Origin: Acidobacteriota bacterium
GTDB taxonomy: Bacteria; Acidobacteriota; Blastocatellia; HR10
Direction: 5' to 3'
DNA length: 64,000 nucleotides
Assembly (NCBI GenBank): GCA_030550025.1
Contig: JAUQQC010000009.1
Location: 1-64,000 of the forward strand
The translations under genes and the position numbers were made by a program. Position 1 is the first letter of the stretch. Each line of letters starts with the position of its first letter. The notes below the pieces were generated by a model. The model searched no databases. It saw nothing but the letters and a program-made list of their open reading frames with translations, and was not told where the DNA came from. Positions 54,751-57,113 of this stretch are shown in pieces.

Positions 54751-55731
54751 TCATCGCGCATTCTCGCGCCACGCGATCCGGAACTTCCCGACGAGGACCT
54801 CTCGGTGATCCGATCGAGCATTGGGCCGAATGCCGAGCTGTCCGAACCCGTAGAAGAACCCATCGGCTCCCCTCACCATTGGAGTGAGACGGCCCGTTGT
54901 GTCCACTTCACATTGCTCTCCGCGATCGTTCAAGAGGACCAGGGACGTGCGACGCGTCTTCGGATCCACACGATTCACGATGATCGCTTCATCCCCCGTG
55001 AATGCAGCATGGATGTGTTCGAAGCCTCCTGAGACTTTCAGCCATGTCTTCTTCGGACCGAGGGCTTCGATCTCCCCACCCGGCTTGACCAGCAGCAACC
55101 GTCCGGCTCCATCCGAGAGCACATGCGCTTCCGACTCGAGAGCTTCGGAGAGAACGCGCTCGGACATTCTCTCGCCATCCGCGGAGAACGTCCGAAGGAC
55201 GCTCACCCCCTCGCCCTTCTCTGTCCAAACCGTTCCGATGACGCCGATGTTCGATCCAAGCCGCAGGAGCCGAGGATTCCCCAGCCCATCGAGCATTACC
55301 GTGCGCCGGAGGTCTCCAGATGTCTCAAAGATCAGCAGAGCGCTTTGCCAACGCCCTTTGTGCCATTGAGCGGTGGCGTAAACTCGGCCCTCCGAATACA
55401 TGGACGAGGTGATACGCGTCCACTGTGCTTCTTCGGGAACAGCAGATGGTCGTTCGAAAACCCGGATCAACGTCCCATGTGGGTCGTAGCTCGCGAGGAA
55501 CGCTCGCACCCGTTGCCCATCGCCCTCCGGTTGCCAGGACGAAAAGCTCACATACATGGTCCCACGCTCGTCCACGACCACGGCGAGGTCTTTAATGCCC
55601 GCTGATCCGGGAACGGGCAGGGAAAGACGATGAGAGGAGACCATCTCCACCGCGCATCCTTGCGGCGGGGTAGCCCAAGCCGTAGACGCGAGAAGACCGA
55701 CGACACAGGTCGCCAAAATGACCTTCCTCAT
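54751..55731 (-). CDS. Exported beta-propeller-like protein
   Basis: 326 residues. A signal peptide (about 1-20, ending TAWA) is followed by beta strands spaced like a six-bladed propeller: KDLAVVVDERGTMYVSFSS, RVRAFLASYDPHGTLI, GRWQSALLIFETSGDL, RLLLVKPGGEIEAL. No catalytic motif is recognisable. It is encoded 3 bases downstream of a small Cys-rich secreted protein, so the two are made together and may bind each other. Confidence 0.68.
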   Translation of the reverse strand: MRKVILATCVVGLLASTAWATPPQGCAVEMVSSHRLSLPVPGSAGIKDLAVVVDERGTMYVSFSSWQPEGDGQRVRAFLASYDPHGTLIRVFERPSAVPEEAQWTRITSSMYSEGRVYATAQWHKGRWQSALLIFETSGDLRRTVMLDGLGNPRLLRLGSNIGVIGTVWTEKGEGVSVLRTFSADGERMSERVLSEALESEAHVLSDGAGRLLLVKPGGEIEALGPKKTWLKVSGGFEHIHAAFTGDEAIIVNRVDPKTRRTSLVLLNDRGEQCEVDTTGRLTPMVRGADGFFYGFGQLGIRPNARSDHREVLVGKFRIAWRENAR

Positions 55732-55734
55732 GGC

Positions 55735-56091
55735 TCACCTCCATTCGATCAAACATTCGAGGGCAAGACAAATGCTCATTCGGATCGGACAGACGCCGAA
55801 GGACCCTTGAGAATCCGGTGGGGATTCGCAGACATCGGGATCGCCCTGCGCGATAAGCTCCTTCCTTCCAGGCCCGGCGTCGAAATCGAAGCATGCCGTG
55901 CATCCCCCTTCCGAATTGCAACACAGGAAGGACGCATTCCAACAATCGAACTGGCAGGGAAATTGTACTCCACCCGATGTAGGAGTGAAAGCGACGAACG
56001 TTCGCGCCGACGCCAGATCACCGCCCGGACCTGATGTGCTTCGCACAGAGGGCGCAGCCGTGAGCGCCGCTACGATCGCCATACAAAGCAT
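55735..56091 (-). CDS. Small Cys-rich secreted protein
   Basis: 118 residues, not recognised. A signal peptide (MLCMAIVAALTAAPSVRS) is followed by a compact Cys-rich region with CQFDC, CCNSEGGCTAC, then further single Cys near the end: at least ten in the mature part, probably in disulfides. The ATG at 56091 is preferred over the in-frame ATG at 56118 because AAGGAAG is well spaced. It heads a two-gene operon with the propeller-like protein and has a repeat-containing promoter. Confidence 0.65.
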   Translation of the reverse strand: MLCMAIVAALTAAPSVRSTSGPGGDLASARTFVAFTPTSGGVQFPCQFDCWNASFLCCNSEGGCTACFDFDAGPGRKELIAQGDPDVCESPPDSQGSFGVCPIRMSICLALECLIEWR

Positions 56092-56179
56092 TACGACTTC
56101 CTTTCTAAGCTGCCCCATTTGGAAACGGGTTTCCCATCTCCCTCCCGCCTGGCTTAATAACTCATCTCTGGCAACCCAG

Positions 56180-56204
56180 AATATACTGTCTGTCTGTCTG
56201 TCAA
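56180..56204 (-). promoter_or_regulatory. Promoter with a GACA tetranucleotide repeat in the spacer
   Basis: On the minus strand: TTGACA (56204-56199), then three more GACA units plus G, then TATATT (56185-56180). The -35 is perfect and the -10 matches five of six, but the spacer is 13 bases. The whole tract (CTGT)4C is 56186-56202. Adding one GACA would make the spacer exactly 17. The hairpin leader and the ATG lie about 80 bases downstream. Confidence 0.55.
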
Positions 56205-56461
56205 CCCCTTTTTCGCTTTTTCCAACACATTTTCGGAGGGGCGGGAAGGCTCTCCCCACAACCGATCCCGATCCTGAAGAGCGGCGCTCTCTTCATCTCC
56301 TCGGACAAGGTCTTCCTCAGGCCATCTTGATTCTGTGGTCTGTCCGCCACGCGTGTTTAGCAATTGCGAGAGGATGCGGGAGGTGGGGCCGCGGGTCGGT
56401 CAGCCCCGCAGGTGATCGCCGATCTGCTCGGAGAGGAAATCTCCACGAGCGCCTGCGCGCA

Positions 56462-56531: not shown

Positions 56532-57113
56532 ATGACGTACACGCCGAAGAACTACGAGCACCTGTTGGGCATGGATGGGTTTAGCGATCAGCTCTTGAGG
56601 AATCATTTCACCTTGTACCAGGGATATGTGGCCAACGCGAACAAGTTGGCCGAAGCGCTTCTGGAACTGGGGAAGAGCGGAAAGGCGGGGACGCCCGAAT
56701 ACGCGGAATTGAAGCGGCGCTTCGGCTGGGAATTCAATGGCATGCGGCTTCATGAGCTGTATTTCGATAATCTGACCCAGACGCCGGAGCCGCTTGAGGC
56801 GAATGCTCCTCTGGCGCGGCTCATTCGTGAGCAGTACGGATCGTTCGAGGCCTGGCGAGACGATTTCAAAGCGGCGGGAGCCATGCGCGGGATCGGATGG
56901 GTCGTGCTCTATCACGATCCGGTCTCCGGTCGGCTCTTCAACACATGGATTAATGAGCACGATCTTGGCCATCTGGCTGGATGCGCGCCGCTGCTCGTGC
57001 TGGATGTCTTCGAGCACGCCTATATGCTCGACTACGGATTGAAGAAGGCGGAGTACATCGAGGCGTTCTTCCACAACATCAACTGGAGGGTCGTGGCGGC
57101 ACGCTTAACATGA
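56532..57113 (+). CDS. sod: Fe/Mn-family superoxide dismutase
   Basis: 193 residues, cytoplasmic by sequence. Family segments are NHFTLYQGYVANANKLAE, RRFGWEFNGMRLHELYFDNL, DVFEHAYMLDYGLKKAEYIE and AFFHNINW. The C-terminal metal-ligand pair (Asp and His in LDVFEHAYMLDY) is present. The N-terminal metal-binding region has only one His (NHFTLYQGYV) where E. coli FeSOD has several, as in a distinct subgroup seen in Geobacter and relatives. Metal choice cannot be read from sequence. AAGGAGGAAATCGCGCG precedes the ATG. Confidence 0.88.
   Translation: MTYTPKNYEHLLGMDGFSDQLLRNHFTLYQGYVANANKLAEALLELGKSGKAGTPEYAELKRRFGWEFNGMRLHELYFDNLTQTPEPLEANAPLARLIREQYGSFEAWRDDFKAAGAMRGIGWVVLYHDPVSGRLFNTWINEHDLGHLAGCAPLLVLDVFEHAYMLDYGLKKAEYIEAFFHNINWRVVAARLT

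Follow-up and report, generated by a model that had tools for sequence, protein, structure and literature searches.

Does a tandem repeat that fills the space between the -35 and -10 boxes of a promoter set the output of the operon behind it? The question is raised by a site on the minus strand of the window (the whole 64,000-nucleotide stretch of Acidobacteriota DNA analyzed here), for which the original prediction had proposed a promoter with a 13-base GACA spacer. Direct reading of the minus strand gave TTGACA (56204-56199), then GACAGACAGACAG (13 nt), then TATATT (56185-56180), the plus-strand letters at 56180-56204 being AATATACTGTCTGTCTGTCTGTCAA. Tandem Repeats Finder reported CTGT x 4.2 at 56186-56202 with a 100% match, the only four-base array in the window, so that both boxes and the spacer are present exactly as had been described. 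The array takes in the final 4 bases of the -35 box and makes the whole 13-nt spacer (56186-56198). The features of the locus are the following.

56205 to 56212, minus strand: conserved box AAAAGGGG immediately ahead of TTGACA, AAA.GGGC in the family consensus, absent from ordinary promoters.
56199 to 56204, minus strand: -35 box TTGACA, 6/6 by direct reading, found at 28/32 family sites.
56186 to 56202, minus strand: GACA tandem array of 4.25 units, 17 nt (direct reading, Tandem Repeats Finder), of variable length at homologous sites.
56180 to 56185, minus strand: -10 box TATATT, family consensus TATAMT (direct reading, family alignment).
56170 to 56176, minus strand: GGTTGCC, counterpart of the family GGCCGCC box, 3 nt past the -10 box, absent from ordinary promoters.
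56122 to 56264, minus strand: promoter region, with a decayed second copy (81% identity) at G000:C21:107131-107274 (nucleotide search).
55735 to 56118, minus strand: Cys-rich protein of 127 aa with a signal-peptide-like N-terminus, start at 56118, alternative start at 56091.
54751 to 55731, minus strand: second gene of the operon, a 326-aa secreted protein, propeller-like according to the original prediction.

The GGTTGCC/GGCCGCC box lies about where the transcription start would be expected. Behind it, the Cys-rich protein has a 60% identical ortholog in the relative G004, and the 326-aa protein has orthologs that are 66-67% identical in G001 and G004 and 34% identical in G005, a genome of the sister genus. 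Pfam and NCBIfam profiles gave no usable match for either gene; the pairing of a Cys-rich secreted protein with a second secreted protein was borne out, and the propeller assignment was left without confirmation from either profile set. A superoxide dismutase gene lies divergently upstream of the promoter (56532-57113). Its neighbourhood in G002 (G002:C13:62887-62927; L024, L194) keeps only a relic, CTTGACAGACAG, and a search of G002 for a homolog of the 326-aa protein found none.

The spacer has to be read against the ordinary promoters of these genomes. Pairs of the form TTGACA-N-TANNNT were enriched at 17-19 bp in the window's own genome (G000) and in G001. The pattern TTGACA-N15-19-TAWRMT matched 26-43 sites per genome vs 0-2 in the reversed control, mostly with spacers of 16-18 bp, and housekeeping promoters, ahead of genes that we take from their N-termini to be those of GroES, MraZ, NuoA, L13, EF-P and IspH, have spacers of 17-18 bp. 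These genomes thus use sigma70-type TTGACA/TATAAT boxes at about 17 bp. The 13 bp spacer of the window is outside the sigma70 range of 15-19 bp, and its site is missing from the generic promoter scan (spacer 16-18), an omission that is expected at this length.

The window site is one member of a family spread over many loci and marked by conserved flanking boxes of its own, which goes beyond the single site originally considered. Pattern search found 13 exact sites in G001, 10 in G004 and 1-2 each in G000, G002, G003 and G005, and the reversed-pattern control of the first pattern gave 0 matches. Exact and near matches together make a curated set of 32 GACA-spacer promoters in six genomes of the window's family, several of the compared genomes being draft metagenome assemblies, with the consensus AAA.GGGC-TTGACA-(GACA)n-G-TATAMT-nnn-GGCCGCC. 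At most of the sites a Shine-Dalgarno sequence and a start codon follow 30-50 nt past the -10 box. Nucleotide searches among relatives likewise returned short matches centred on the GACA repeat, at unrelated places. The identical position and layout ahead of unrelated secreted-protein genes support the view that the sites are a promoter-class element; the recurring layout, together with the use of sigma70 boxes at 16-18 bp in the genus, also supports the promoter reading first made from consensus boxes.

Outside this family, the 156 other genomes of the class yielded 3 non-repeat matches only, and a search of 84,980 species gave only single matches per genome, one third of them with 17 bp spacing. 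A literature search found no paper that deals with these bins or describes promoters of this type in Acidobacteriota. Clostridia contigs from rumen or gut carry a homologous GACA-spacer promoter of 17 bp in L045 and 13 bp in L056 and L070; the next long frame in L045 reads like fructose-bisphosphate aldolase. The one-unit difference between L045 and L056/L070 is, judging from these contigs, an independent 13-versus-17 case.

Could the repeat be a neutral microsatellite, present by chance or copied along with duplicated genes? Some sites are tandem or recent paralogs, and the window promoter region is itself a copy of another promoter: its decayed counterpart in G000 stands upstream of another secreted-protein gene. 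This sharing between two unrelated operons (81% identity) suggests an exchange of promoter regions between loci. The region at 56122-56264 is also 78% identical to G002:C4. However, most downstream genes are mutually unrelated, the flanks outside the boxes differ, and the GACA tract of at least 13 nt is found nowhere else in the six genomes: all 24 such tracts (GACAGACAGACAG) recovered by whole-genome pattern search lie at promoters of this kind, a count that includes one array cut by a contig end and not among the 32 curated sites (G001:C59). Sequence statistics, taken from samples of about 400 kb of two genomes and from whole-genome pattern searches, agree. In these samples, tracts of at least 17 nt were formed by the GACA unit only, the G001 sample held 7 GACA tracts of at least 13 nt vs 1 for all other units together, and the window array was the only tetranucleotide tract of at least 17 nt in about 400 kb of its own genome. 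As this tract is unique there and the layout recurs 32 times in six genomes vs 0 in the reversed control, the arrangement in the window is not due to chance. We consider the explanation by chance or copying very improbable, and refuted in the main. At the end of contig G001:C59 a GACA array breaks off after at least 25 nt (G001:C59:10946-10970), perhaps because its length varied in the population sampled.

The genes behind these promoters are mostly unrelated to one another, and most of them code for exported proteins. A hydrophobic N-terminus was found in 27/32 first genes vs 24% of the background (p ~1e-11), and 18/32 exceeded the background 95th percentile for Cys. Start codons were chosen automatically, hence a few of the remaining first genes are probably secreted too. 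Partner genes include AhpC/TSA-type thiol proteins, an ABC transporter ATPase and a weak VWA match. At G001:C12:11439-22161 (L177), four repeat-bearing promoters and one decayed promoter, which contribute to the tandem or recent paralogs mentioned above, are found within 11 kb; they precede small Cys-rich secreted proteins, thiol-redox proteins and predicted membrane proteins, and the cluster may serve to export Cys-rich peptides.

Does the repeat number vary, as a switch would demand? Across the 32 sites, the spacer measures 5 bp (4 sites), 9 bp (12), 13 bp (7), 14 bp (1), 20 bp (1), 21 bp (4), 25 bp (2) or 33 bp (1). When orthologs of G004 and G001 were paired by downstream genes or shared flanks, the spacers were 21/14, 9/5, 20/21, 25/13, 5/9, 9/9, 9/9, 9/13 and 33/9, that is, unequal in 7/9 pairs and mostly in steps of 4. 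For ordinary promoters of the same two genomes, spacing was identical in 17/19 pairs and off by 1 in the remainder, in a comparison that sees only spacers of 15-19 and is biased toward agreement. The 21 vs 14 and 9 vs 5 pairs have 0 gaps in their 60-nt flanks, which are 85-95% identical; the change is thus concentrated in the GACA tract. Perfectly pure tracts occur at 23/32 sites, though flanks are only about 65-95% identical. The window spacer of 13 corresponds to 21 in G004 and 14 in G001. In G005 the promoter of the homologous operon reads TTGACA-N17-TAAAAT; its spacer is not a repeat, and a GGTCCGCC box is present. A 5 bp spacer is kept in one orthologous set across two species (G000, G003), with boxes intact. 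Invariance of the repeat in relatives, the outcome that would have spoken against a switch, did not hold, and these comparisons indicate that the GACA repeat number is unstable over evolutionary time.

From these data we put forward a family of sigma70-type promoters with a slippage-prone GACA microsatellite as spacer, in which repeat number sets output, a reading to which we give about an even chance. The mostly 4-step changes and the pure tracts point to replication slippage as the source of the altered repeat number, and since both boxes are near-perfect, spacing would decide output. With a spacer of 14 bp or less, no -35 sequence would be in register and the promoter would be off or dependent on a regulator; at 17 bp, a perfect TTGACA would be in register and expression strong; from 20 bp upward, CAGACA supplied by the repeat would be in register and expression would be weak. 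In a register analysis with the -10 box fixed, using approximate E. coli weights and promoter strength rules borrowed from E. coli, the 5-14 bp forms lacked a good in-register -35, one site (G004:C5:31615) excepted, and spacers of at least 20 bp placed CAGACA (4/6) at 16-17 bp. An alternative in-register -35 for the short-spacer forms was clearly better than random at G004:C5:31615 only. The window copy would be off or weak and would need one more unit to reach the strong state; its operon would then yield the exported Cys-rich protein in rare cells only, or with an extra regulator acting through the conserved flanking boxes. The whole looks like a slippage-driven expression switch, and the site is a candidate phase-variable promoter.

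Several observations were counted against a simple 13-to-17 switch. No repeat-bearing spacer of 15-19 bp occurs among the 32 family members (probability ~0.02 under a geometric fit), and 16/32 sites stand at 5 or 9 bp, where the repeats are too few for slippage to be frequent. The 5 bp promoters of G000 and G003 also count against our preferred reading, because a dead promoter would not keep its boxes. The sequenced genomes, one consensus genome per species, show only spacings predicted to be off or weak, as one would expect of contingency loci that are seldom switched on, or of promoters held in a detuned state. The empty 17-bp class is the main puzzle; it fits rarely-on loci, selection against overexpression or a separate regulatory protein. 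Moreover, 2-4 repeat units slip rarely, and a tract of 4.25 units is short for frequent slippage; the window copy would be a slow switch at best. Loss of mismatch repair as the cause of instability was rejected, as each of the six genomes has homologs of MutS and MutL.

The same facts lend themselves to a second explanation, in which slippage is variation over evolutionary time only and selection holds each gene low, with no reversible switching in the population; the missing 17 bp class would then reflect selection against overexpression. The 0/32 count at 15-19 bp, the short tracts and the mismatch-repair homologs agree with it. On the other hand, long pure arrays (spacers up to 33 bp, and the contig G001:C59 ending in its array) should change length within populations, and the boxes are near-perfect, though weakening a box would be a simpler route to low expression. 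We judge it unlikely.

A third explanation takes the array as an operator: a dedicated regulator would bind AAA.GGGCTTGACA and/or the GACA repeats and drive or block RNA polymerase at TATAMT, repeat number tuning its occupancy, so that copy-number change would be the evolutionary tuning of an ordinary regulon and not phase variation. The AAA.GGGC and GGCCGCC boxes are conserved and unseen at ordinary promoters, which suggests that a regulator takes part as well; compact forms (5 and 9 bp) are the most frequent and in part conserved across species, and the downstream genes form a coherent set. Nevertheless, a protein that contacts DNA in a fixed geometry would not accept conserved halves set anywhere from 5 to 33 bp apart, both TTGACA and TATAMT match the sigma70 consensus almost perfectly, the homologous promoter of the sister genus is spaced by 17 bp of non-repeat sequence, and the analysis identified no candidate regulator. 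An operator is rather unlikely in our estimation, yet somewhat less so than promoters merely held low.

The spacing-dependent promoters proposed here have known counterparts. In the Haemophilus influenzae hifA/hifB fimbrial promoter, a (TA)n tract was proposed to alter the -35/-10 spacing (PMC2651432, citing van Ham 1993 and Geluk 1998). In both systems, the distance between -35 and -10 depends on a simple repeat within the promoter, which would control a surface or secreted product. The hifA/hifB tract is a dinucleotide in one divergent promoter pair, whereas the GACA family has a tetranucleotide at up to ~14 mostly unrelated operons per genome, carries extra conserved flanking boxes, and occurs in uncultured environmental bacteria. 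Here too the repeat lies exactly between -35 and -10 and its number differs between related genomes at one locus (7/9 pairs); an allele with the optimal 16-18 bp spacing was found at 0/32 repeat-bearing sites, only the non-repeat G005 homolog standing at 17 bp. The repeat unit of nadA is TAAA. This Neisseria meningitidis gene has a variable repeat tract in its promoter, acting with the NadR repressor (PMC2791445). Its promoter repeat number sets expression through spacing and a regulator also acts, as in the operator explanation, but the tract alters the spacing of NadR operators and other distal elements, leaves the -35/-10 spacer alone, and concerns a single gene. The tetranucleotide tracts of H. 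influenzae lie mainly inside reading frames. They resemble the GACA family in that one tetranucleotide class extends over many contingency loci of surface function (PMC2651432). GACA tracts differ in being found only in promoters and in being shorter. Relative to hifA-type spacer repeats, the new feature is one tetranucleotide common to many loci.

Most known cases of phase variation by repeats come from pathogens and commensals that live with a host. A promoter family with a shared spacer repeat in apparently free-living bacteria (two relatives are the metagenome bins HRbin08 and HRbin10, the nearest named relatives being Blastocatellia) would, if true, show this strategy outside hosts. The spacers also offer a natural series from 5 to 33 bp for testing spacer length against promoter output. 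More tentatively, the family may amount to a stochastic regulon, in which about a dozen GACA promoters per genome in the richest relatives would drift independently through off, strong and weak states, each cell exporting its own random Cys-rich subset. The family also draws attention to the Cys-rich exported proteins of these bacteria, which form a large and uncharacterised set.
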